From: a virus
Length of the DNA: 37,097 nucleotides
IMG/VR virus record: IMGVR_UViG_3300044608_002487
Coordinates: 1 to 37,097 of that record
Strand: one strand, 5' to 3'
Shown in pieces: positions 1,389 to 17,664 of the stretch (position 1 is its first letter; each line of letters opens with the position of its first letter). A model generated the notes under the pieces. That model had not been told where the DNA came from and did no database searches. It was given only the letters and a program-made list of their open reading frames with translations. Both the position numbers and the translations under genes were made by a program.

Positions 1389-2217
1389 TGCTGGCTCCAT
1401 CGGCGAGGTTTTGGCGGGCGGTGGCGAGGGCGTCGAGCAGTCGCTTGCGGCGGTCGTTGGCGGGGCTGGCTCGGGTCGGTGGGCCTGTCGCGGCCACCGC
1501 GGGCTTCTCCGCGACCATGGGCACGCCGGCCTCGGCGAGCAGCTCGGCGAGTTGCCGCGCCCTCCTGGAGCCCATGCCGCGGCGGTACTGGAGCTCCTCC
1601 AGCGGCACGCGGCGCAGCTCGTCGAGGTCTCGGATGGCCGGGTCTGCGGGGTCGGTGGGCGCGAGCAGCAGCCGCAGCAGGTCGGGCCGGGTGCCCAGCG
1701 CCTGCACCAGGGCCGCGCTGGGCGACTCGGGGGGAGTCGATGCCGGAGCCGGGTCGGGGTCGCGCGTGTTCCCTCCCCCTTCGGGTGAGGGGTGATGGGT
1801 GATGGGTGAGGAGTAGAACGCGCGTGGCGGTTTGCTGGCGGCGGGCTGGCGGAACGCTGGCGGCGGGCTGGCGGTTTCTTGCTGATTGTCGGCGTTCGCG
1901 CTTGTCGCCGCTGGCGGTTCGCTGGCGGTTCGCTGGCGGTTCGCTGGCGGTTTGCTGGCGGAATTGCGTTGGGCGAGTCCGTCGCGCCAGCTTTCCTCGT
2001 CGCGGAGAAGGCTTTTCACGGCCCAGTCCGTCCATCCCCAGTCGGCGCAGAGGGCGGGCCGGCCGGGGAAACGGATCGGGCGCCAGCCTTCGCGGGCGGT
2101 GGCCCGGTCGAGGTGCCATCGGAGATCCATGGCCGCGGCCTCCATCGGCCAGGGCTGCGGGATCGTGGCCCGAATGGTCTCCCACCACGAGGCCTGCATG
2201 GGCACGAAGCCACTCAT
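1375..2217 (-). CDS. O-like replication initiator with intragenic origin
   Basis: 280 residues, ATG 2217 overlapping the helicase stop by ATGA. The N-terminal 80 residues (WWETIRATIPQPWPMEAA, then DLRWHLDRATAREGW and WGWTDWAVKSLLRDEESWRDG) look like a winged-helix DNA-binding domain. A low-complexity linker of about 75 residues, rich in Ala, Pro, Ser and Gln, follows. It is encoded by 11-bp and 7-bp tandem DNA repeats whose periods are not multiples of three, so the repeats act as DNA, as in the origin inside the lambda O gene. The C-terminal region (residues 170-280) contains a helix-hairpin-helix-like stretch 'PLEELQYRRGMGSRRARQLA'. Proposed role: binds the iterons and recruits helicase through the downstream loader-like protein. 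Confidence 0.65.
   Translation of the reverse strand: MSGFVPMQASWWETIRATIPQPWPMEAAAMDLRWHLDRATAREGWRPIRFPGRPALCADWGWTDWAVKSLLRDEESWRDGLAQRNSASKPPANRQRTASEPPAATSANADNQQETASPPPAFRQPAASKPPRAFYSSPITHHPSPEGGGNTRDPDPAPASTPPESPSAALVQALGTRPDLLRLLLAPTDPADPAIRDLDELRRVPLEELQYRRGMGSRRARQLAELLAEAGVPMVAEKPAVAATGPPTRASPANDRRKRLLDALATARQNLADGASNALP
1783..1810. repeat. Four tandem 7-bp repeats beside the iterons
   Basis: Four consecutive heptamers, GGGTGAG, GGGTGAT, GGGTGAT and GGGTGAG, lie inside the initiator gene 13 bp from the 11-bp iteron array. Their period is not a multiple of three, so they do not encode a repeated peptide. They are probably a second element of the replication origin. Confidence 0.6.
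1823..1964. repeat. Iteron array, candidate replication origin
   Basis: Two blocks of five 11-bp units with consensus GCTGGCGGTTC (plus strand). Block one is 1823-1877 (first unit degenerate) and block two is 1910-1964; a 32-bp spacer that keeps roughly helical phasing separates them. Three consecutive units in block two (1910-1942) are identical. An 11-bp period matches about one DNA turn and cannot be explained by peptide repeats. The arrangement matches the iteron plus initiator-gene organisation of lambda ori. No strongly AT-rich unwinding segment is obvious; the spacer 1878-1891 (TTCTTGCTGATTG within it) is the most AT-rich piece. Confidence 0.75.
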
Positions 2218-4070
2218 GCCGCCCCCCTGCGCTTCCAGCCGCCCTTGCGGAGCTGCTCGGCCACCCGGAACTTCCCGGGCTCTTCGCGCTCACGGATGCG
2301 GCGGGTGATGCGCGCAGCGTCGATGAGCATGGCGGCCTCACCGCGCGACATGCCGACGGTCGAGCGCGTGACGCCGAGGCTCTGCAGCATGCGCTGGTGC
2401 ATCGACGTGGCGAGCTCGGCGAGCGTCGGGTGGTCCGGGGGGAGCACCTCGACGCCGAGCGCCCGCACGTGGCTGTCTGCCCACGACAGCGCCACCTCGA
2501 GCTCGCGGCAGCGATGGCGCTCCACGAGGATGGAGGTCACGCCGTCGAGCTCCCAGACGACGTAGCCGCTGGCGCCAGGGCGAACGGCCACCACCTTGCG
2601 GGCGCCGCCGGCGCCGAGCACCTCGCCGCCGACACAGTGAGCGCCGGAGTACTCGAAGAAGCCGATCCGGTCGCGCTTGCGGACGCCCGGCAGGAGGCAG
2701 ACCTCGTACAGCCGGCCGGTGACCGACGCGAGCTTCATGGGCACGGGCTTCTCGGCCTTGTCGGGCGCGACGAAGGCCAGCTCGGGCCACGGGTGGGTGA
2801 GCTCCTCGCCGTCCTTGTGCACCGGGCTCGGCGGCCACTCGACGGTGGCGTAGCTCACGGTGCCGATCTGGACGGCCGCCACGACCCCGACGCCCCAGTC
2901 GTCGTGGTGGCGACGGCGGACCCGGTCGCCCTCGTGCAGCGCGCGCTCGCCCTGGGCGTCCTCGGTGCTGCCGATCCCGAGGTTGGCCTCGACGGTCAGC
3001 ACGAGGTCGCAGCCGTTGTCGACGAAGTCAACGAAGTTGCAGTGGGTCTTTCCGGGGTGCCGACGAAGGCCGCGGCCGACGGTCTGCACGAACACGATGA
3101 TGGAGCGGGTGGGCCGCGCCTTGAGCACCTGCACGGTGGCCGGGGCGTCGAAGCCCTCGAAGAGCAGGTCCTTGCTGGTGAGCACCTGGATGCGGCCGGC
3201 CTGGTAGTCGGCGACGACGCGGTCGCGGTCGTGGCGGGGCATCTCGCCCCACGCCGCGGCGGCCTTGATGCCGCGCTCCATGAAGGCCGCGGCGAGGTCC
3301 TGCGCGTGCTTCACGCTCGCGCCGAACACCAGCGCCTGCCCGCCGCCGAGCTCGAGGTACTTCTCGACCACGAGGCGGTTGCGGGCCGGGTCGTTGACGA
3401 CCTTGGAGAGCTCGACCTCGTCGTAGTCGGCCCCCGACATCGCGACCTGCGAGAGGTCGATCTGCGTGTCGACCCGATGGGCCTTGAGCGGCACGAGCAC
3501 GCCTTCTTCGATGGCGCGGGCGATCGGGTACTCGTAGACGATGGCCTCGAAGACCGAGCCGAGCCCGAGGGTGGTGCCGTTCTCGCCCGCTCGGTAGGGC
3601 GTGGCGGTGAGCCCGACGACGCGGCAGTCGGGGTTGACGGCCCGGGCGGCCTCGATGACGATGCCGTAGCTGGGGGCAGTCGCGTGGTGGGCCTCGTCGA
3701 TGATGACGACGGTGCGGCGGCCAATGCGAGCGAGCCGCGACACCGAGCAGCTCTGCACGCTCGCCACGACGATCGGGCAGTCCCATCCGTCGAGGTCGGC
3801 CTTCACGATGCCGACGCGGGGCGCGCCGGGCACCTTCGCGATGCGCCGGGCGAGGTCCTGGATGAGCTCGTCGCGGTGGACGAGCACGACGACCTGCCCG
3901 CCGTGGAGGGCGGCCAGCACCGCGAGCCCTGCGAGCAGCGAGCCCTTCCCAGAACCCGTGGCGGCCGCGGCGAGCAGCGAGCGATAGCGCTGGAGGCCGG
4001 CGCGGATGGCGTCGAGGCACTCGATCTGCCAGCGAAGCGGGGACTGTCCTGCAGGGAGCGGCAGCGACAT
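2214..4070 (-). CDS. SF2 DEAH-box helicase
   Basis: 618 residues, from ATG 4070, which overlaps the RusA stop by ATGA; upstream in-frame codons overlap that gene and are unlikely to be used. Helicase motifs are clear: Walker A AAATGSGKGS (35-44), DEAH box IIDEAHH (about 123-129), motif III GLTATP (153-158), and motif VI QTVGRGLRRHPG (329-340). This is the RadD/UvsW/Res-subunit-like class of phage SF2 helicases. After the core, residues about 390-430 (LHEGDRVRRRHHDDWGVGVV) resemble a Tudor/KOW-like barrel, and a Cys/His-poor extension follows. It is likely to remodel branched DNA or assist origin opening. Its neighbours are a Holliday junction resolvase and the initiator, which supports a replication-recombination role. 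No nuclease motif is visible. Confidence 0.9.
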   Translation of the reverse strand: MSLPLPAGQSPLRWQIECLDAIRAGLQRYRSLLAAAATGSGKGSLLAGLAVLAALHGGQVVVLVHRDELIQDLARRIAKVPGAPRVGIVKADLDGWDCPIVVASVQSCSVSRLARIGRRTVVIIDEAHHATAPSYGIVIEAARAVNPDCRVVGLTATPYRAGENGTTLGLGSVFEAIVYEYPIARAIEEGVLVPLKAHRVDTQIDLSQVAMSGADYDEVELSKVVNDPARNRLVVEKYLELGGGQALVFGASVKHAQDLAAAFMERGIKAAAAWGEMPRHDRDRVVADYQAGRIQVLTSKDLLFEGFDAPATVQVLKARPTRSIIVFVQTVGRGLRRHPGKTHCNFVDFVDNGCDLVLTVEANLGIGSTEDAQGERALHEGDRVRRRHHDDWGVGVVAAVQIGTVSYATVEWPPSPVHKDGEELTHPWPELAFVAPDKAEKPVPMKLASVTGRLYEVCLLPGVRKRDRIGFFEYSGAHCVGGEVLGAGGARKVVAVRPGASGYVVWELDGVTSILVERHRCRELEVALSWADSHVRALGVEVLPPDHPTLAELATSMHQRMLQSLGVTRSTVGMSRGEAAMLIDAARITRRIREREEPGKFRVAEQLRKGGWKRRGAA

Positions 4071-4567
4071 CAGAGCACCGCCGCGAGGACGGGCGGAGGA
4101 GGAGCAGGGCGAAGCATGCCGGGCGCGGGCAGGTCGATGTCGTCCAGCGCCGCGAGCACGAGTTCGACGCCGGGCGTCTCGCCGACCGCCGCATAGACCT
4201 GCTCCTCCCGGGAGCGGGCGACCCGGCGATCGTCCGACCAGACCCCGGACTCGTTGACCCCGTCCCACACCGCCTTCAGGACGTTGTCGAGGTCGTAGCG
4301 GCCGCTGGCGAAGGCGCGGCGACCGGTGCCCCACGCATCCTCCGAGACCACCGCGGGACGCTTGGCCGGACGCGGCCAGATGACCGTCATCCGGGTCTCG
4401 ACGAGCCGATCGAACTGCTGCAGCCCGCAGGCGGCCTGCTTCACCACGAAGGCCACGCGCGCCTGGAAGTCCCGCGTCCGTTCGGGGGTGCGGTGCGCCC
4501 CGTCGCGGTGGCGCTCCTTGCCCATCGGCAGGCCGGGGACGAATACCGAGATCGTCGCGGTGTTCAC
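4070..4567 (-). CDS. rusA: RusA-type Holliday junction resolvase
   Basis: 165 residues from GTG 4567, overlapping the upstream stop as GTGA. The RusA signature is present: an N-terminal VPGLPMGKERHRDGAHRTPE, a strand MTVIWPRPAKRP, and the acidic core RYDLDNVLKAVWDGVNESGVWSDD (residues about 89-112; several acidic residues as in the RusA catalytic cluster). RusA family members are small dimeric, metal-dependent endonucleases that cut four-way junctions. Phages use them to debranch DNA before packaging. The C-terminal proline-rich tail (after residue 140) is extra. Function is well supported by the conserved acidic pattern and by the helicase and RdgC-like neighbours. Confidence 0.85.
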   Translation of the reverse strand: MNTATISVFVPGLPMGKERHRDGAHRTPERTRDFQARVAFVVKQAACGLQQFDRLVETRMTVIWPRPAKRPAVVSEDAWGTGRRAFASGRYDLDNVLKAVWDGVNESGVWSDDRRVARSREEQVYAAVGETPGVELVLAALDDIDLPAPGMLRPAPPPPVLAAVL

Positions 4568-5724
4568 TGCGAACCCCCGACGGCCGCCGCGAGGTCCTCG
4601 CTGGCCTGCATCGCGAGGATCGTGCGGATGCTGCCGAGGTGCTGGGCGTAGCGGTCGGACCCGCGAAGGTCGCCGAACTTTGCTAGCAGGTCGAGCCAGG
4701 CCTCATAGGCGCTCTGGCGATCGAACACCTCGCCGAGCAGGACGTCCTCGACGGTGCCGGCCTTGCGCTTCAGGGGGCAGTGGATGCCGGTGAGGGCCAG
4801 CTGCTCCTCGCGGACCTCGATCTTCAAGGTCGCCACGGTCAGGTCGTTGACGAACAGGGTGAGCGAGCAGCCGCCCACCTGGTTGCCCTGCAGGAGCGCG
4901 AGCCGGGCCAGCGGGTCGCGGGCGGCGTCGTCCTGATGGAGCACCGCGCGTTTCTCGCCCGTCGACAGGTGGAGGGTGAGTCCTCCTTCGAGGGCCCACG
5001 CCCAGTCGTTCTCCTGCGACCGGAACGAGGGCAGGGCCTCGGCGGAGTGCTGGTAGCCCCACCACGCCCACGTCAGCGCCTGATGGGCCACGCCGCGCTC
5101 GAGCTCGCGGGGGCGGGTCCCCTCCCCGTCCTCGGGCTCGTCGACGCTGACGGTGCCGGTGAGGCCTCGCTCTGCCTGCGGGTCGCGCGCCACCACCTGA
5201 TCGGCGAGGCTCGGACGGGCGACCGTGACGCCGTCGCGGCGAAGCACCTTGGCGATGTCGTCGATCACCGCCGGCTTGTGGGAGCCGACCAGCACCTGGT
5301 TCGACGAGAGGTCGAAGGCGACCAGCACGCCCTCGGTGGTCGGCGGGGTGCGGCGGCGGAGCTCGAACTCGGCTTCCTCGCGGACCTCGTCGACCTCGGC
5401 CTTGCTGAGCTTGCCGCCGGCTTCCATCTCGCGCATGGCGCAGAGCTGGGCTGTCAGGGTGTGGACGGCGGTCTTCGGGACCTTCTTGGTGTCCACCCGC
5501 CAGCAGACGGCCACGATGTTGCCTGCGACGCAGGCCTCGTGGGACATGGCGGCGGTGACGTCGAGCGGTGGCGCCCACCCTCGGCCGACGAGCGCGTCCG
5601 GGAACGGCGGCCGGAAGGCCGAGGTGGCGAGGGCCTCGAGCAGGACTGCCGCCGTCCAGTCGCCCTCGAGCGTCCAGACGGTGAGGCCGTGCCAGTCGGC
5701 GCGGAGGGTGGTCGGCGACTTCAC
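4564..5724 (-). CDS. RdgC-like recombination-associated protein
   Basis: 386 residues starting at GTG 5724, which overlaps the upstream stop (GTGA). In the first 160 residues the pattern resembles RdgC: FPDALVGRGWAPPLDV, then WRVDTKKVPKTAV, then 'EMEAGGKLSKAEVDEVREEAEFELRRRTPPTTEGVLVAFDLSSNQVLV' (split across about 100-150). This follows the RdgC order 'GWVPP ... KILPA ... GR.L...E...LKE.V...LLPRA ... .A.LD...g.LVVD'. RdgC is a ring-shaped double-strand DNA binder that modulates RecA. The C-terminal half is longer and less familiar. Its place between a regulator and RusA fits a recombination role. An annotation search by profile would settle it. Confidence 0.55.
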   Translation of the reverse strand: MKSPTTLRADWHGLTVWTLEGDWTAAVLLEALATSAFRPPFPDALVGRGWAPPLDVTAAMSHEACVAGNIVAVCWRVDTKKVPKTAVHTLTAQLCAMREMEAGGKLSKAEVDEVREEAEFELRRRTPPTTEGVLVAFDLSSNQVLVGSHKPAVIDDIAKVLRRDGVTVARPSLADQVVARDPQAERGLTGTVSVDEPEDGEGTRPRELERGVAHQALTWAWWGYQHSAEALPSFRSQENDWAWALEGGLTLHLSTGEKRAVLHQDDAARDPLARLALLQGNQVGGCSLTLFVNDLTVATLKIEVREEQLALTGIHCPLKRKAGTVEDVLLGEVFDRQSAYEAWLDLLAKFGDLRGSDRYAQHLGSIRTILAMQASEDLAAAVGGSQ

Positions 5725-6176
5725 GCGGACTTCCGCCGAGCGACCGCCCGGAGCGCCTGGTTGAGCTGGGCCACCGCCTGGTTGGCCCGCATCTGGAGGC
5801 CCTCGGCTTCCTCGTCGGTGATGCGACCATCGGCGAGCGCGTCGTCGATGGAGGCAGCGAAGCTGGCGGTCTCCAGCGTGGCGCGGACGCTGGCGCTCCG
5901 GGCCATCGCGAGGGCCGGGGCGGGCGTGGCCACCTGATGGCGGGCGAGGAGCGGGGCGTACACGGCATCGGCACCGAAGCGGGCGGCCAGCCGGTCCAGC
6001 TCGGCGAGGCCGACTTCGCGGGAGCCGGAGCGCCAGCGACACACGAGGCTGGCGTCAACGCCGGCGACGTCCGCGAGCTCGCGGTCGGTGGGCATGCGGC
6101 GGCTGGCGGCCATCTCGGCGGCTTTGCAGGCGTCGAGGATGCGGCCCTGCAGGTCGGACAGGTGGGCTTTCGTCAT
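5721..6176 (-). CDS. CII-like HTH regulator
   Basis: 151 residues from ATG 6176; an in-frame TTG at 6197 has no Shine-Dalgarno. Residues about 24-65 (RRMPTDRELADVAGVDASLV, then CRWRSGSREVGLAELDRLAARFG) form a helix-turn-helix of the Cro/CII type. A long helical C-terminus (ALADGRITDEEAEGLQMRANQAVAQL) resembles the oligomerisation helix of phage CII-family regulators. It overlaps the RdgC-like gene by GTGA and lies just downstream of a strong hairpin (6219-6253). It is probably an early transcription regulator deciding lysogeny or replication timing. An alternative is a primase- or origin-associated DNA binder. Confidence 0.65.
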   Translation of the reverse strand: MTKAHLSDLQGRILDACKAAEMAASRRMPTDRELADVAGVDASLVCRWRSGSREVGLAELDRLAARFGADAVYAPLLARHQVATPAPALAMARSASVRATLETASFAASIDDALADGRITDEEAEGLQMRANQAVAQLNQALRAVARRKSA

Positions 6177-9329: not shown

Positions 9330-9703
9330 GTGCGCCCGTCGATAACCGCGGTGTCCGCATCGCCATCTTCGTGCGCCGACATGGTCGCAGCAAGATGGAG
9401 CAGATCGTCGCGGCCTTCGAAGCCGGGGAGACCGCAGCAGAGGTCGCTCGTCGGTTCGGCACCAGCCGCCAGAACGCCTGGCTCTGGCAGCGTCTGCTCA
9501 TCGACTCCCCGCCGCCCCGGCGCTGCCCGGAAGTTGTGCACGCTTTGGCCGGGACGAAGTCCCCGGCGGTCGAGCTGGTGGAGGTCGGCGAGCAAGTCGA
9601 GCAGCAGCTGGCCGCGGCTGACGCGACCGACGCGAAGGCCCTGCTGCCCCTCCTGCTACTGTGCGCGTTGGTCGCCGTTGGCGCGATCGTGGTGCTTTGT
9701 TGA
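9326..9703 (+). CDS. HTH protein with C-terminal membrane anchor
   Basis: 125 residues. Residues 24-58 (MEQIVAAFEAGETAAEVARR, then FGTSRQNAWLWQRLL) form a helix-turn-helix like those of transposase or Mor-type proteins. A 45-residue linker follows. Residues 105-125 (ALLPLLLLCALVAVGAIVVL) are a single C-terminal transmembrane helix ending at the last residue. A DNA-binding head tethered to the inner membrane is unusual in a phage early operon. It could recruit phage DNA to the membrane or act as a membrane-linked transcription sensor; both are inference. Start ATG 9326 overlaps the previous stop (ATGA). Confidence 0.75.
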   Translation: MSAPVDNRGVRIAIFVRRHGRSKMEQIVAAFEAGETAAEVARRFGTSRQNAWLWQRLLIDSPPPRRCPEVVHALAGTKSPAVELVEVGEQVEQQLAAADATDAKALLPLLLLCALVAVGAIVVLC

Positions 9704-10596
9704 GCGCCGGCGACGAGCCCCGGGGCATCCCCCGTGACCGGCCCGCGCGCCTCCCCATCGGCGCGGCGCTCTCCATCGGCCGCAAGGGCCCGAACGGAGC
9801 GCCCATCGACAAGGACCGCTTCTTCATCGTGCGACCCGTCGCCGACGCGCGGGGCAAGGACGGGCGGCGCGACCCGCACCCGCTGTACACCACGTTCAAC
9901 CAGCTGGCGCCCGAGGGCCCGGCCGCGAAGGCCCACAATGAGATGCGCGCCACCGTGCGTGGAGTACTCGTCCACGCCGACCACCTCGACGCGTGGACCG
10001 AGAGCCTCGTCGCGGACAAGATTCAAGGCCACCTCCACCCGACCGGCGGCCCGTCCTGCAAGGGCGATGGCACCCGGGCGATGCGGTGGAGCACCGAGAT
10101 CGGAGACTACGGGCACCTGCCCTGCCCCGACACCAAGTGCCGGTTCCGCCAGCCCACCCAGGGCCAGAACGGTCGGCCCCAGCGGCCGGCGTGCCACCCG
10201 CACGCGAAGCTGATCTTCCAGCTGCGCATGAAGTCCGCGAGCCTGCTCTGCAAGTTCACCAGCAACGCCTGGGAGACCTCGGAGAGCATCAAGGGCTTCT
10301 TCGACTTCATCCACCAGCAGGCCGCGCTGATGGGCGTCGACCACGTGAACCACTACGGCCTGCCGTTCGCGCTGACGCTGGCGCAGCGCACTGGGCAGGG
10401 CTCCCGGTACTCCGTGGTGCACATGTCGCCGGACTTCGGCGAGGACCGCACGCTGCAGGAGTGGCTCGGCTCGCAGAGCGCCGCCCGCCGCCAGCTCGCC
10501 GCCGAGGTTGGCCTGCTCCGGCTGGGCACCGCGGCCACGCTGGACGACGACGCGGACGATGTGCCCGGCGACCTCGCATCCCTCGGCGTGGCCTGA
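9700..10596 (+). CDS. Gp3-like (recombination directionality factor-like) zinc protein
   Basis: 298 residues from TTG 9700, which overlaps the previous stop as TTGA. An ATG at 9661 lies inside the preceding gene and is less likely. The core matches the phage Gp3-like family: SCKGDGTRAMRWS, then LPCPDTKCRFRQ and RPACHPHAKLIFQLRM (two Cys pairs, likely zinc). LLCKFTSNAWETSESIKGFF and GLPFALTLAQRT follow. Members include the phiC31 Gp3 directionality factor, but many homologues sit with recombination genes and not with serine integrases. This phage has a tyrosine integrase, so an RDF role is uncertain. It probably binds or processes DNA with the adjoining nuclease. Confidence 0.65.
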   Translation: MSAGDEPRGIPRDRPARLPIGAALSIGRKGPNGAPIDKDRFFIVRPVADARGKDGRRDPHPLYTTFNQLAPEGPAAKAHNEMRATVRGVLVHADHLDAWTESLVADKIQGHLHPTGGPSCKGDGTRAMRWSTEIGDYGHLPCPDTKCRFRQPTQGQNGRPQRPACHPHAKLIFQLRMKSASLLCKFTSNAWETSESIKGFFDFIHQQAALMGVDHVNHYGLPFALTLAQRTGQGSRYSVVHMSPDFGEDRTLQEWLGSQSAARRQLAAEVGLLRLGTAATLDDDADDVPGDLASLGVA

Positions 10597-11855
10597 TGCC
10601 CTCCGTCGGCCATCGCTCGACCAGCCTCCGCTACCTCGAGGACCACTGTCCGCGGGCGCTCGACCACTACGAGGCCGGCGCGCCCTACGACCGCGACGTC
10701 TTCCAGGTGGGCGTGGCGGCGCATGCGGTGATCGAGATGGTCGGCAAGCACCCCGACCGTCCTCGCGAGGATCTAGCCCAGCAGGTGGCGGTGGCGCTGT
10801 GCACCGAGGGCCGCAGCTTCGAGGGCGAGCCCGAAGGCCCCCTCCGCCCGCAGCACGCGGCAGCCGGTCGCGACATCGCGCTCCGCTTCCTCGCCGCGCA
10901 CGATCTGAGCCCCGGCGCCATGTTCGAGCATGGCCTCGCGGTCGACCGGGAGTGGAAGCCGGTGCCGTACGACTCCGCCCAGGTGTACTACCGGGCCGCG
11001 ATCGACATGCTCGAGGTGGTCGAGGACACCGACGAGGACGGGTACACCACCACCACGATCGTCTCCACCGACTGGAAGTCGGCGTGGCCCACCTCGGCCG
11101 ACGAGCTCGACACGCTGCAGCTCCACGGCCAGACGGCGCTCGCGCTCGCCCACTACCCCGAGGCGACCATCCTCCGACGGCGGGCAGCGAACCTCCGCAC
11201 GCTGGCCATCTTCGAGGCCGACGTCTTCCTCGACGACGACGGACTGGCAACGGTCGGCAAGTGGCGCAAGGACATCGACCTGCTCATCGCCGTGGCCGAG
11301 CACCGCGGCGAGGACGGCCGCCGCCCGGCCCGCCCTGGTGCGAGCTGCATCGGCTGCCCGTTTCTCAGCCGCTGCGAGGCGGCCCGCGCGTGGCTGCGGG
11401 GCAGCCTCATCGACGGCTCCCCGGTTGCGCTGGCCACCCGCCTGGCGGTGGCCGATGCGGTCCGCAAGGAGCTCTGGGGGCAGGTCAAGGCCGTCGCTGG
11501 CGAGGAGCCGATCGCCATCCCCGGCGGCGAGGTGGGCTTCATCACCACCCGCGAGCGCACCCCCCGCCCCGAACTCGGCGAGATGCTCGCGCTGGCGTGG
11601 TTCGGCGCCAGCGACCCGAAGACCTGGCGCGAGGCGAACCACTCCACCGACCAGTGGGTGGGCCTCCTGCAGACGCTGAAGCTCGGCGTCGCCTCGGCAG
11701 TGCAGGTCGCCAAGCTGCTGTACCCGCCCGGCAAGGGCCGCGACTGGCGCCCCCTCCGCGAGGCCCTCGTCTCGCAGTGTGTCGTGAGCCAACCGGCCAC
11801 GAAGTTCTCCATCGCAAAGACCAACCAGAAGGACGAAGACCATGACGAAGGATGA
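10596..11855 (+). CDS. Cas4/AddB-like Fe-S PD-(D/E)XK nuclease
   Basis: 419 residues; ATG 10596 overlaps the previous stop by one base (TGATG). Nuclease core: His43 in AAHAVIE, Asp137 in YRAAIDMLEVV, Asp159-Trp-Lys161 in STDWKS, and Gln176 in LQLHGQTALALA, the RecB-type order H, D, DxK, Q. Cys18 in DHCPRAL and CIGCPFLSRC (251-260; C251, C254, C260) supply four Cys in the one-plus-three layout of the Cas4/AddB iron-sulphur cluster. The remaining 150 residues are of unknown fold. Predicted to be a single-strand or end-processing exonuclease. It probably works with the Rad50-like and DEDDh proteins encoded just downstream. Confidence 0.85.
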   Translation: MPSVGHRSTSLRYLEDHCPRALDHYEAGAPYDRDVFQVGVAAHAVIEMVGKHPDRPREDLAQQVAVALCTEGRSFEGEPEGPLRPQHAAAGRDIALRFLAAHDLSPGAMFEHGLAVDREWKPVPYDSAQVYYRAAIDMLEVVEDTDEDGYTTTTIVSTDWKSAWPTSADELDTLQLHGQTALALAHYPEATILRRRAANLRTLAIFEADVFLDDDGLATVGKWRKDIDLLIAVAEHRGEDGRRPARPGASCIGCPFLSRCEAARAWLRGSLIDGSPVALATRLAVADAVRKELWGQVKAVAGEEPIAIPGGEVGFITTRERTPRPELGEMLALAWFGASDPKTWREANHSTDQWVGLLQTLKLGVASAVQVAKLLYPPGKGRDWRPLREALVSQCVVSQPATKFSIAKTNQKDEDHDEG

Positions 11856-12252
11856 GATCAAGAAGGCCCGCGAGAGCACGATCGAGGAGCTCCAGATGGT
11901 GCTCGCGCAAGTCGACAAGGAGGAGGCCGACGACCGAGTCGAGCGCGCCAAGCGGTTCAACGGGGTCCGCAACGAGGCGCGCAGCAGGGCCACGGCACAG
12001 CTGGTCGGTCTGCTCGACGCGGCCATGATCCTGCTCGACGAGGACGCCGACCCGGCGCCGGCGCCGCCCCCCGCCGCGAAGACCGCCGCCCCGCTGAAGG
12101 CCGCGGCCGAGCCGCAGACCGCGCAGCCGACCGCGCAGCCGACCGCACCGAAGACCGGCGGCCCCCGTCCGGTCGCGCGCGCGCTGCCCTCCACGCCGAG
12201 GCCTGCCCCCGCTGACAGCGAGCTGCCCGACGCCGGGTCGGTGTTCGGATGA
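11842..12252 (+). CDS. Helical protein with Pro/Ala-rich acidic tail
   Basis: 136 residues, overlapping the nuclease gene by 14 bp and the ATPase gene by 4 bp. The N-terminal 70 residues are charged and helical (MTKDEIKKARESTIEELQMV, then DKEEADDRVERAKRFNGVR). Residues 70-125 are a Pro/Ala/Thr linker with the repeat QPTAQPTAP. The end DSELPDAGSVFG is acidic and hydrophobic, reminiscent of protein-interaction tips such as that of SSB, though no OB fold is visible. Its tight place between nuclease and ATPase suggests an adaptor joining them; this is inference. Confidence 0.65.
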   Translation: MTKDEIKKARESTIEELQMVLAQVDKEEADDRVERAKRFNGVRNEARSRATAQLVGLLDAAMILLDEDADPAPAPPPAAKTAAPLKAAAEPQTAQPTAQPTAPKTGGPRPVARALPSTPRPAPADSELPDAGSVFG

Positions 12253-14096
12253 TCGCCGCGCTCTCGCTCGCCGGGTTCGCCGGCATCGAGCAGGCCGTGG
12301 TGGAGCTCGACCCCACTGGCCACACCACCATCACCGGCCACAGCCAGGCCGGGAAATCGACCCTCATCGAGGCGGCCTGCTACGCGCTCTGGGAGACCGG
12401 GACCGACGGCAAGTCGCTCGACACCTCAGCGGTGCGGGACGGCGCCGAGGAGCTCGAGGTCGGCCTCCGCACCGCGAAGGGCGCCACCATCTGGCGCCGC
12501 CTCCGCTCCCGCGGTGGGAGCACCCGCGCGCTTCAGTCGTCGGACGCCGTCGAGCCCGCTCCCGTGCAGACGGCCGACCAGATGGCGGCGAAGCTCGGGG
12601 CCATCGGGCTGCAGCCGGACATCGGGCGGCTCATCCTCGCCCCGCTGGGCTGGGTGCCGCTCCTGCAGGCCGAGCTCGGCCGCCCGCTTCGCGACCTGCT
12701 CACCCAGATCATGCCCGCCGGCGACCTCGGCGCGGTGGTCGTCGAGCTGATGGAGGGCGCGGGCCAGGTGTCCATGCCGGGCGACCCGCACACGGCGGAC
12801 GCCGCGCTCAAGCTGCAGACGCAGCGCAACTCCGAGCGCGACCGGGCCGCGGGGAGGCTGCAAGCCCTGCGGACCGCCAGCGACACATCAGCCGCGGCCG
12901 GTCCCACCGACGATGAGATCGAGAACGCGAAGGCCTTCGTGACGGTCGACGAGCAGTGGGCGAAGTTCGATCGCGAGGTGGCCGGGCACGCCGACGTCCT
13001 CGCTCGCTACGAGGCTGCTCGACGCGCCCGCGCCGAGGCGCTCATCGCCAACGACGCGTGGAAGCAGCGGCATGCGGCTCTCCCGCCTGCGCCGAAGCCC
13101 GACCTCGAGCAGCAGAAGGCGGTCGCCGAGCTGCGCGCGGCGAAGACGGAGGCGGAGCAGGCGGACGAGATGGCGCGCTCTGCCGTCACCAACGGCGAGC
13201 GGGCGAAGGCTGGCCTCGACGCGGCCGAGGCTGCCCACAAGGCGCTGGTGGACGGCGGCAGCAACTGCCCGACCTGCAACCGTGGGGAGTGGCAGGGCGC
13301 AGCGGAAAAGGTGAGCGACTCCGCGAAGCGCCTGGCCCTGCAGCGCAGCTCCGTGAACGCCGTCATCGACCAGGCCATGCAAGCCGAGGCAAAGAGGCAG
13401 AAGGCGGCCGCGCGCCTCAAGGCCGCCGAGAAGGCGGCCGCAGGCTTCGCCGACACCGAGGTCGCTGCGGCTGCGCGCCGTGATGCTCTCGCCGCTCTCG
13501 GTCTGGAGCCTACGGTACCGCCCGAGTCGACCGCGCCGACCGGAGTCCCCACCGCTCCCGACTGGGCGCGGCCGAGTTCGGAGGAGTCACGTCACGCCCG
13601 CAGCGTGCTGGACGAGGCGGCAGCGGCCCGCGGTGCTTCCGAGCGCCAGGCGCGCATGGCGGCCGACGTCAAGCAGGCGGAGGCCGCGCTCGAAGCAGCG
13701 ACGGCCGAGGCCACCCGCGTGGTGGTGCTCGTCGACGCCTGTCGCCGCGCGCCGACGGAGCTCGCCCGCAAGCAGGCCGACTGCTTCGGCGACACGGGCC
13801 CGGTGTCGCTCCGGTTCCCGCCGAAGGAGAATCGCGCCTCGCGCGAGATGGAGGTGCTCGTTGACGGTCGGCCCTGGCGGCGGGCGAGCCGTGGCCGGCT
13901 CATCTACGCCGACGCCGTCCTCCGCTGCGCCCTGCGTCGCGCAGCGGCGGCGAAGTTCGGGCCGGCGTTCAGCCGGTTGCCCGTCTTCGTGGACGACGTG
14001 CAGTCCTGGACGGGCGAGTGGGACGGCGTCGAGGCGCCCGCGGTGTACCTGGTGACGCAGGCCGACGTGGAGCTGAGCAGCTCGGTGGGTGCGTGA
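12249..14096 (+). CDS. Rad50/SbcC-like ATPase
   Basis: 615 residues, ATG 12249 overlapping the previous stop. Walker A GHSQAGKST (30-38) follows an N-terminal strand typical of Rad50/SMC proteins. Two Ala/Glu/Lys-rich coiled-coil arms flank a zinc-hook motif CPTC (340-343, in GGSNCPTCNRGEW). The C-terminal head has a signature-like RRASRGRLIYADAVLR (544-559) and a Walker B LPVFVDD (577-583), where Asp replaces the usual catalytic Glu. It is short for the family (SbcC about 1,000 residues), as phage versions often are. No Mre11/SbcD phosphoesterase is encoded in the window; the neighbouring Fe-S nuclease and DEDDh exonuclease are candidate partners. Confidence 0.85.
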   Translation: MIAALSLAGFAGIEQAVVELDPTGHTTITGHSQAGKSTLIEAACYALWETGTDGKSLDTSAVRDGAEELEVGLRTAKGATIWRRLRSRGGSTRALQSSDAVEPAPVQTADQMAAKLGAIGLQPDIGRLILAPLGWVPLLQAELGRPLRDLLTQIMPAGDLGAVVVELMEGAGQVSMPGDPHTADAALKLQTQRNSERDRAAGRLQALRTASDTSAAAGPTDDEIENAKAFVTVDEQWAKFDREVAGHADVLARYEAARRARAEALIANDAWKQRHAALPPAPKPDLEQQKAVAELRAAKTEAEQADEMARSAVTNGERAKAGLDAAEAAHKALVDGGSNCPTCNRGEWQGAAEKVSDSAKRLALQRSSVNAVIDQAMQAEAKRQKAAARLKAAEKAAAGFADTEVAAAARRDALAALGLEPTVPPESTAPTGVPTAPDWARPSSEESRHARSVLDEAAAARGASERQARMAADVKQAEAALEAATAEATRVVVLVDACRRAPTELARKQADCFGDTGPVSLRFPPKENRASREMEVLVDGRPWRRASRGRLIYADAVLRCALRRAAAAKFGPAFSRLPVFVDDVQSWTGEWDGVEAPAVYLVTQADVELSSSVGA

Positions 14097-14707
14097 TGGA
14101 CCTGCCCCGCGGCCAGCGCGTCTGCGTCCTCGACACCGAGACCACCGGCTTCCCCGGTCAGTCGTGGTCCCACGTCATCGAGCTGGGCGCGGTCATCCTC
14201 GACCCCGACGGCAGCGAGGTCGACAGCTTCGGCCATCTCGTGATTCCGCCCGTGCTGGACGAGCGGGCCGAGCAGGCGCTGGCGATCAACCACATCACCG
14301 CCGAGGAGCTGCGGCGCTTCGGCCGGTCGCCTGCGACCGTAGCCAGGGAGTTCGCCGACTGGCTCTGGCAGCACCAGTGCAAGTTCGTAGCCGCCTACAA
14401 CCGCCAGTTCGACGAGGCGATGCTTCAGAAGATGGACGGATGGCCGGAGGTCGACGTCCGCTGGCTGAACTGCATCATGCTGGCCTCGATGGACGTGATG
14501 GCCGCGGCCGGCGCTGCCGAGCGGTTCAGCAAGCACGGGCGCGCGAAGTGGCCAAAGCTCTCGGTGTCGGCGGAGTTCTTCGGCGTCGAGGTGACCGGTC
14601 CCGCTCACCGCGCCGTTACCGACGCGCGCACCGCAGCCGGGGTGATGGTGGCGATCGCCCGTCGCCGGCGGGCGGCGGAGATCGCGCGTGGCGAGGCGAC
14701 CCCATGA
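14096..14707 (+). CDS. DEDDh 3'-5' exonuclease (DnaQ-like)
   Basis: 203 residues; ATG 14096 shares one base with the ATPase stop (TGATG). Exo I: LDTETTG with D13 and E15. The NHITAEEL segment follows at about 65-72. Exo II: AYNRQFDEAML with D106. Exo III: HRAVTDARTAAG with H171 and D176. The full DEDDh catalytic set is therefore present. Such proteins trim 3' ends of single-strand DNA or RNA. It follows the Rad50-like gene with no gap, so it may act on ends opened by the ATPase-nuclease pair. Also possible: proofreading or RNA turnover. Confidence 0.9.
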   Translation: MDLPRGQRVCVLDTETTGFPGQSWSHVIELGAVILDPDGSEVDSFGHLVIPPVLDERAEQALAINHITAEELRRFGRSPATVAREFADWLWQHQCKFVAAYNRQFDEAMLQKMDGWPEVDVRWLNCIMLASMDVMAAAGAAERFSKHGRAKWPKLSVSAEFFGVEVTGPAHRAVTDARTAAGVMVAIARRRRAAEIARGEATP

Positions 14708-16047: not shown

Positions 16048-16165
16048 CGCCACGATCGAAGTCCTCCGCCTGTTCGAGCGCGAGCTCGCCGTGCTCGCGG
16101 TGGCCCTTCTCGTCTCCATATTCCTGTGCGGCGGGTGCTGCGGCTGGGTGCTCCATGTCCGCTGA
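16040..16165 (+). CDS. Single-pass membrane mini-protein
   Basis: 41 residues from GTG 16040, with GAGG 6 nt upstream, overlapping the previous gene by 8 bp. After a short amphipathic N-terminus (NATIEVLRLFERE), residues 17-38 (AVLAVALLVSIFLCGGCCGW) form one transmembrane helix ending in a Cys cluster. The stop lies 11 bp into the next gene. Function unknown. It is the third small membrane protein in this operon. Confidence 0.5.
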   Translation: MGNATIEVLRLFERELAVLAVALLVSIFLCGGCCGWVLHVR

Positions 16166-16358
16166 GATCATCCGCCTCATCGTCGACCGCGATCCCCCGC
16201 CGGCGCCTCCGCCCGGGTGGACCGTGGTGCCCGTGGGCGCTCGCTGGGTTGCCCAGCGCCAGTACGTCCCCGGCAGGGTCGCGGGCGCCGTGGTGCGCGG
16301 CGGGAGTGCTGCGGAGGCCTGCGAGGCCGCGCGCCGGTTTGAGGGGGTGCGGGAATGA
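16155..16358 (+). CDS. Small protein of unknown function
   Basis: 67 residues from ATG 16155, overlapping both neighbours. The N-terminus (MSAEIIRLIVDRDPPPAPPP) carries a hydrophobic strand then a Pro run. The rest is a beta-rich stretch (GWTVVPVGARWVAQRQYVPG) followed by a helix (SAAEACEAARRFEG). Third positions are G/C-rich, so coding is likely. No family recognised. The tight overlap implies co-translation with the excisionase-like gene that follows. Confidence 0.55.
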   Translation: MSAEIIRLIVDRDPPPAPPPGWTVVPVGARWVAQRQYVPGRVAGAVVRGGSAAEACEAARRFEGVRE

Positions 16359-16741
16359 CGCCCTGGCTCTCCACCGACGCCGTCGCCGCGCACCTCGGCA
16401 TCCCCGCGCGCACCCTGCTCGACATGGCCGACCGTGCGCCCTCCCAACTTCCGGCGCCCCGGATCGGAGTCGGCACCGGCGTGCGGCGCATGACCTACCG
16501 ATGGAAGCCGCTGCCCGTGGTAGAGCGGTGGCTGGAGGAGCTCACGCGATGGCGAGCATCGATCACCCCCGAGGACGCCCCCGCGTCCGGTGGAAGGACC
16601 CCGACGGCACGCCCCACAGCCGCACCTGCTCGACGGAGACCGCCGCGCGCCAGCTCCTCCGCGCCGTGCAGCTCTGCGAGGACACCGGCCGAATCTGGCA
16701 GCCTGAAAGCAGAGCTGCAACGCCTTCGCTCCGGGGGATAG
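16355..16741 (+). CDS. Excisionase/MerR-like HTH protein
   Basis: 128 residues, ATG 16355 overlapping the previous stop (ATGA). Residues 4-65 (WLSTDAVAAHLGIPARTLLD, then VRRMTYRWKPLPVVERWLEE) look like a winged HTH of the excisionase/MerR type: HTH, then a basic wing, then a helix. Placement directly before an integrase supports an Xis role. From residue 66 the frame overlaps the integrase by 193 bp and becomes Ala/Pro/Arg-rich, so the C-terminal half may be dispensable. No other stop is available earlier. A helix-turn-helix regulator of other function is possible. Confidence 0.6.
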   Translation: MTPWLSTDAVAAHLGIPARTLLDMADRAPSQLPAPRIGVGTGVRRMTYRWKPLPVVERWLEELTRWRASITPEDAPASGGRTPTARPTAAPARRRPPRASSSAPCSSARTPAESGSLKAELQRLRSGG

Positions 16742-17664
16742 CGCTCAAGTGGATGGCGGCCATCGACCGCCGCCTCTCCCGCCGGACCGTCGACACCCGG
16801 CAGCAGCAGGTTGACCCGTTCCTCGACTGGTACGAGGAGCGCGAGGGCGCCGGCGCCGGCCCGGAGCACCTGTCGCGCGCGCTCATCGAGGCCTACTGGG
16901 ACCACGTGCGGACACCGGCTACCGGCCGCTACATCCACCGCCGCACCGAGACCACGGCCCGCAAGCACATCGAGACCTTGCACCTGTTCTGGGAGTGGGC
17001 CTTCGACCGCGAGGAGTACGAGGGCATCGTGCCTCGCTGCCGCAAGATGGAGCTGCCCCGGAAGCCGGCCACGCGTCCGAGGCCGGCGCCGAGCTGGGCG
17101 GAGATGGACATGGCGATCAGCGCCGCGACCGGGTGGCGACGATGCCTCCTCGTGGTGATGCGGTGCACCGGCCTGCGCGTCCAGCAGGCGATGGGGCTGC
17201 GCTGGGCGGACGTCGAGGGCGCCCGCCTCACCATCGACGGCGAGCTCGGGAAGTCGGCGCAGGAGTCGCGCGGGCGTGTGGTGCCCATCGCCCCATCGCT
17301 GCTCGCGGAGTGGGCGCAGCCATCGATCGCCGAGTGGACGGACGACGCCTGGATCGTCCCCTGCCCGCACGACCACCGGCTGGTCCGGTCGCGTGACGTG
17401 GCGCTCATCTGGACCCGCACCGAAGCCCGGCGAGCGGCGTGGGAGGGCCGGCCCGATCACTGCTTCCGCGCTGGCTACCAGACGGGCCTGCGCGCGCTCG
17501 GCGTGAAGCGCGAGGCCACCGAGTACCTCGTCGGTCACGCCCTGCCCGGCCTCGATGCGTCCTACATCGACCCAGAGCAGGCGCTGCACCTCACCGCGGC
17601 CGTGTCGCTGGTCCCGGCGTTCGCGGTGGCCGAGGCCGTACCGTCGCAACTGCGGCGCGCCTGA
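16549..17664 (+). CDS. int: Tyrosine site-specific integrase
   Basis: 371 residues from ATG 16549; GGAGGAG lies 9 nt upstream. The N-terminal 50 residues (RGRPRVRWKDPDGTPHSRTC) look like the arm-type DNA-binding domain, followed by a SAM-like core-binding domain (about 60-165). The catalytic residues are all present: R210 in CTGLRVQQAM, H304 and R307 in HCFRAGYQTGLRALG, H330 in LVGHALPG, and the nucleophile Y339 in DASYID. A Lys near 235 fits the beta-hairpin lysine. It is the last gene of the rightward operon, and its stop is followed at once by the putative attP. Catalyses integration and, with the Xis-like protein, excision. Confidence 0.95.
   Translation: MASIDHPRGRPRVRWKDPDGTPHSRTCSTETAARQLLRAVQLCEDTGRIWQPESRAATPSLRGIALKWMAAIDRRLSRRTVDTRQQQVDPFLDWYEEREGAGAGPEHLSRALIEAYWDHVRTPATGRYIHRRTETTARKHIETLHLFWEWAFDREEYEGIVPRCRKMELPRKPATRPRPAPSWAEMDMAISAATGWRRCLLVVMRCTGLRVQQAMGLRWADVEGARLTIDGELGKSAQESRGRVVPIAPSLLAEWAQPSIAEWTDDAWIVPCPHDHRLVRSRDVALIWTRTEARRAAWEGRPDHCFRAGYQTGLRALGVKREATEYLVGHALPGLDASYIDPEQALHLTAAVSLVPAFAVAEAVPSQLRRA

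Follow-up and report, generated by a model that had tools for sequence, protein, structure and literature searches.

An SbcC-like ATPase, a predicted Fe-S nuclease and a DEDDh exonuclease in a temperate phage resemble, without a recognisable annealing protein, a probable recombination cassette of other phages

The IMG/VR virus record analysed here (37,097 bases, hereafter the window) represents a complete circular or circularly permuted phage genome, its ends being joined in contig L033 with 99.7% identity over 3,000 bases. It is the genome of a temperate tailed phage with genes for a terminase and a tyrosine integrase (the latter at 16126-17664 on the + strand, with a true start that may lie further downstream). 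Four open reading frames on the + strand, encoding a nuclease, a small Pro/Ala-rich protein, a Rad50/SbcC-like ATPase and a DEDDh exonuclease, were confirmed at the positions given in a preliminary description of this DNA, and the overlaps of 1-14 nt claimed there amount to 14 nt (11842-11855), 4 nt (12249-12252) and 1 nt (14096). Viral scans recovered near-identical contigs and a single relative, IMGVR 3300020162_003413, which keeps all four genes; scans with TerL and the helicase added just one distant TerL fragment. Direct tblastn with the ATPase, the nuclease and the neighbouring Gp3-like protein gave no match in 50,697 phage records, a plasmid search returned weak P-loop matches only, two genome scans detected no relative and sequence searches of the PDB yielded nothing useful.

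The first gene (10596-11855, + strand) encodes a protein of 419 aa that matches Pfam PDDEXK_1 at 30.4 bits (cut-off 22). It had been likened to the four-cysteine nucleases of the Cas4/AddB kind, and the superfamily domain, the catalytic-type motifs (H43, D136 and D158-x-K160) and all four cysteines (residues 18, 251, 254 and 260, C...CxxCx5C) are indeed found, together with a C-terminal extension of ~145 aa. The Cas4/AddB arrangement of the cysteines predicts an Fe-S-type PD-(D/E)XK nuclease, with the CxxCx5C spacing of AddB. Comparison with IMGVR 3300020162_003413 gave a dN/dS of 0.13, indicating purifying selection, and the single-sequence AlphaFold model was poor (pLDDT 43). Kinship with the phrog_69 nucleases of the Pseudomonas-type cassettes described below was also tested; no sequence-profile match to them was obtained and the common ground is the Pfam superfamily. 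Upstream, a gene for a Gp3-like protein (PF18897; 9661-10596, + strand; E 5.6e-6, 26.8 bits against a cut-off of 23.6) overlaps the start of the nuclease gene by 1 nt and probably belongs to the same operon. The family takes its name from the phiC31 directionality factor, the partner of a serine integrase; here, where the phage integrase is of the tyrosine type, the protein may have another primary role than directionality.

Between the nuclease and the ATPase lies an open reading frame (11842-12252, + strand) for a protein of 136 aa consisting of a charged N-terminal part, a Pro/Ala-rich linker and a conserved tip, DSELPDAGSVFG. The suggestion that this protein is a conserved bridge is weakened by a dN/dS of ~1 overall relative to IMGVR 3300020162_003413, even if the tip, comprising the last 12 residues, is the same in both phages.

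The ATPase (12249-14096, + strand, 615 aa) carries a Walker A motif at residue 30 (GHSQAGKST), a zinc-hook motif at residue 340 (CPTC), a signature-like motif at residue 546 (ASRGRLIYAD) and a Walker B motif at residue 577 (LPVFVDD). Both features that the preliminary description had singled out, the zinc hook and an Asp in place of the catalytic Glu (D582-D583), were verified. In the AlphaFold model long helices (286-339 and 351-398, pLDDT mostly 70-90) flank the CPTC motif, which is thereby predicted to lie at the apex of a hook-bearing coiled-coil hairpin as expected of a zinc hook; the heads were modelled with low confidence. The gene is under purifying selection (dN/dS 0.34 against IMGVR 3300020162_003413), with heads near-identical to those of the relative and a coiled coil of ~30-85% identity per 20-residue block. 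At the DNA level the stretch encoding the coiled coil and hook (12961-13568) diverges from the relative L003 far above the level of its flanking DNA, as does the stretch for the small protein's N-terminal part; mosaic exchange or relaxed constraint could account for this divergence.

Similarity of the ATPase to its nearest family, phrog_1499, is modest (44.9 bits, residues 2-550). With hhalign the N-terminus scored 95.5% against A4, but canonical SbcC was at least as good there, the Walker A region scoring equally against it, and the C-terminus scored 95.7% against A6. A weak match to LmuB (28 bits in PADLOC) and the closeness of the module to the integrase gene would suit a prophage-borne anti-phage defence akin to the Lamassu-type systems of SMC ATPase and nuclease; the LmuB similarity is however limited to the P-loop region and comparable cassettes in other phages carry RecT or Erf, often with an SSB, so that we regard a defence function as very improbable.

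The fourth gene (14096-14707, + strand) encodes a DEDDh (DnaQ-like) 3'-5' exonuclease of 203 aa matching RNase_T at 45 bits and phrog_192 at 102 bits. Its DTETTG, NRQFDE and HRAVTDA motifs leave DxE, D and HxxxxD all intact, in keeping with the full exonuclease originally reported, and its dN/dS of 0.35 relative to IMGVR 3300020162_003413 again indicates purifying selection. The start is most likely the ATG at 14096 (TGATG) and not the GTG at 14018 of the mechanical ORF list. Another phage cassette with such an enzyme is seen in Vibrio phage VvAW1 (L005:3941-6615), where a weak Rad52-like gene, with a PF04098 match below the curated cut-off, is followed by genes for a coiled-coil protein and a DEDDh exonuclease.

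No Metallophos domain was found anywhere in the genome and, since this is circular and complete, the absence of Mre11/SbcD noted earlier can be read as real. Models for RecT, ERF, Sak4 and Rad52 likewise found no match in the window genome or in IMGVR 3300020162_003413; positive controls matched these models, the Rad52 control (VvAW1) doing so only below the curated cut-off. A scan of the window ORFs against PHROGs gave no annealing-protein match, and the genome showed no recognisable phage DNA polymerase. Further recombination-related genes lie on the - strand and encode an RdgC-like recombination-associated protein (4564-6042, 492 aa; PF04381, 50.4 bits, with only ~150 residues matching the N-terminal half of RdgC), a RusA-like Holliday junction resolvase (4070-4567; phrog_140, E 5e-19) and a superfamily 2 helicase (2214-4334; ResIII/Helicase_C). 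As RdgC directly adjoins the ATPase in phage CF418P1 and in Vibrio phage 252E42.2, the RdgC-like protein is a candidate annealing stand-in, a part that either it or the Gp3-like protein may play. The CF418P1 protein concerned (L046:4831-5991), directly before the ATPase, is annotated as a DNA translocase and matches RdgC (PF04381) with an E-value of 9.5e-89.

Because direct searches were empty, similar cassettes were reached through the weak phrog_1499 link and then by a DNA-pattern scan. R6L gp41 and PSonyx gp110 belong firmly to phrog_1499, and R6L-like ATPases occur in 222 phage records, many of them with an exonuclease and RecT or Erf, or with Sak4, in the neighbourhood. Thus R6L and ZS04 combine the ATPase with an ExoVIII-type nuclease, DnaQ, Erf and SSB; Chocolat, ZRG1 and PSonyx combine it with RecE or a PD-(D/E)XK nuclease and RecT; in FP_Lugh and EFC-1 it adjoins Sak4. 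Some neighbourhoods are without such genes, as in KASIA, where neither nuclease nor DEDDh exonuclease is annotated close by. PHROGs labels the family as of unknown function and some records misname its members MRE11. One of these is Chocolat gp43 (Arthrobacter phage, L020:6001-7236), annotated as an MRE11 endo/exonuclease, whose alignment places it among the SbcC-like ATPases of phrog_1499 type; the Chocolat genome has no Metallophos match.

The DNA-pattern scan led to the Pseudomonas prophage L042, in which a PDDEXK_1 nuclease, RecT, an FtsK-gamma protein, a zinc-hook ATPase and a DEDDh exonuclease follow one another, and via L042 to phi297, Magia, PfAn1, CF418P1 and PY223. The combination of nuclease, RecT, SbcC-like ATPase and DEDDh exonuclease is repeated in PfAn1 and CF418P1; in phi297 and Magia the cassette is without the last. 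The four cysteines are invariant in six nucleases of the L042-type group. In Bordetella phage PY223 a phrog_3657 protein (L045:4855-5949) sits between nuclease and ATPase, the place of RecT in its kin, and is a candidate new annealing protein. The neighbourhoods of TM4 (Cas4/DnaQ) and phiC31 (Gp3), checked as models, contain the ATPase in neither case. The gene combination of the preliminary description, nuclease, ATPase and DEDDh exonuclease, is thus already present in GenBank phages of the L042 type (L042, PfAn1, CF418P1).

Whether the DEDDh exonuclease belongs functionally to the module can be judged from the same neighbourhoods. If the early operon were a loose one, recombination would be the task of the ATPase and nuclease, and the exonuclease would be a mere neighbour with a proofreading or scavenging role, as might be suggested by the phrog_192 label (DNA polymerase exonuclease subunit), by the phi297 and Magia cassettes and by DEDDh genes that elsewhere adjoin a phage DNA polymerase. 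Yet the gene lies directly 3' of the ATPase in the window, L042 and CF418P1 and nearby in PfAn1, that of VvAW1 lies near a Rad52-like gene and the window genome has no recognised phage DNA polymerase, which makes the loose arrangement doubtful in our view.

Rad50-type ATPases are known as partners of Mre11. Among phage records with ATPases similar to that of the window, Metallophos is absent in 18 of 18 and no ATPase has a Glu after the Walker B Asp, whereas all three control phages with an Asp-Glu SbcC carry a Metallophos gene (3/3); the window, with Asp-Asp and no SbcD in the genome, fits the former group. An SbcD-like gene in relatives, which would have spoken against the earlier proposal, was thus seen in 0/18 records. 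The sample is small, with partly related records (R6L/ZS04; phi297/L042) and Metallophos scored per genome and not per operon, and we treat the correlation as a lead and not as a statistic. On these motifs the exchange of Glu for Asp looks like a trait common to the SbcD-less group and no peculiarity of this genome.

The preliminary description had explained the missing Mre11 by a different end-resection complex, in which the docking place of Mre11 on the ATPase is taken by the Fe-S nuclease or the DEDDh enzyme, the small protein forms a bridge and cutting depends on ATP. The absence of Mre11 from a complete genome, the tight overlap of the four genes and the joint recurrence of nuclease and ATPase in several phages are what such a complex would lead one to expect. 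The nuclease and DEDDh exonuclease vary independently of the ATPase, however, with neither annotated close by in KASIA and Sak4 adjoining it in others, and the small protein evolves at a dN/dS of ~1; we consider the complex unlikely. Nor would it be unique, since other sequenced phages combine these three enzyme types as well, in most cases alongside a RecT- or Erf-type protein, and this recurrence with an annealing protein argues for a phage recombination cassette rather than a resection complex with a substitute for Mre11.

We therefore favour, at a probability of roughly 70%, the reading that these genes form an early module for recombination and end processing in a temperate tailed phage, with a Red/RecET-like role and an SbcC-like accessory ATPase. 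The occurrence of the same enzymes with RecT in L042, PfAn1 and CF418P1 points to this, as do the RusA, RdgC-like and helicase genes of the window. Against it, no annealing protein is recognised, the nuclease is tied to those of the Pseudomonas type only at the level of the superfamily, the phrog_1499 similarity is modest and the Walker A region is as near to canonical SbcC. In the recombination module, double-strand ends of the phage DNA would be resected to single-stranded tails by the Fe-S PD-(D/E)XK nuclease, a counterpart in this role of lambda Exo or RecE. For the zinc-hook ATPase we envisage that it holds DNA ends or sister molecules, or loads onto ends by ATP-dependent dimerisation, and as its Walker B Glu is missing we propose that it hydrolyses ATP little or in an altered manner. 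Trimming of 3' ends or flaps could be the part of the DEDDh enzyme. Strands would be paired by an annealing protein of unrecognised type, for which the RdgC-like (4564-6042) and Gp3-like (9661-10596) proteins are the likeliest candidates, and RusA would resolve the junctions.

Neighbourhoods of this general kind have been reported, with recT genes of Firmicutes phages neighboured by SMC-like and AAA ATPases and streptococcal sak4 genes that can adjoin sbcC (PMC8093625), and in jumbo phages SbcC is kept together with SbcD (PMC7824862). In the literature searched, which was covered in part, we found no description of the nuclease-ATPase-DEDDh cassette as such. The combination of enzymes in phages is known; what is new here is a pair of related genomes with no RecT, ERF, Sak4 or Rad52 in either. 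A broader and tentative proposal, which we hold possible, is that SbcD-less and Glu-less Rad50-like ATPases form a distinct phage class and serve PD-(D/E)XK nucleases and annealing proteins as an end-tethering or loading clamp, the annealing protein being replaced here by one of an unrecognised type (RdgC-like or Gp3-like). A recurring class of Mre11-less, Glu-less phage ATPases that keep company with Fe-S nucleases and annealing proteins would reveal which functions the ATPase has by itself and could help to improve recombineering tools.

The module looks like a divergent version of a phage recombination cassette known from several sequenced phages, one that has no recognisable annealing protein of its own, and not like a unique machine. 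With L042/phi297, PfAn1, Achromobacter CF418P1 and Burkholderia Magia it shares a four-cysteine PD-(D/E)XK nuclease, a Glu-less SbcC-like ATPase and the lack of SbcD; the ATPases of these phages are of similar length (578-594 aa) and have a CxxC hook except in CF418P1, three of the group have the DEDDh exonuclease and CF418P1 also has RdgC. The L042-type cassettes differ in that RecT, often accompanied by the FtsK-gamma protein, separates nuclease and ATPase; in the window this place is taken by the small Pro/Ala-rich protein, no annealing protein is recognised and alignment of the nucleases does not reach beyond the superfamily. The phrog_1499 ATPases (R6L, Chocolat, ZRG1, PSonyx) resemble that of the window in their Rad50-like heads, non-Glu Walker B and lack of SbcD, and their genes often adjoin those of exonucleases and annealing proteins, but at 411-483 aa they are shorter and lack a CxxC zinc hook. 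TM4 and other cluster K mycobacteriophages have DnaQ and Cas4-like exonuclease genes near each other as in the window, but no Rad50-like ATPase between them. Compared with SbcCD, Rad50-Mre11 and T4 gp46-gp47, the ATPase of the window is alike in type, coiled coil and zinc hook, and differs in having no Mre11-type phosphoesterase, in its missing Walker B Glu and in the nuclease of a different fold encoded alongside it.
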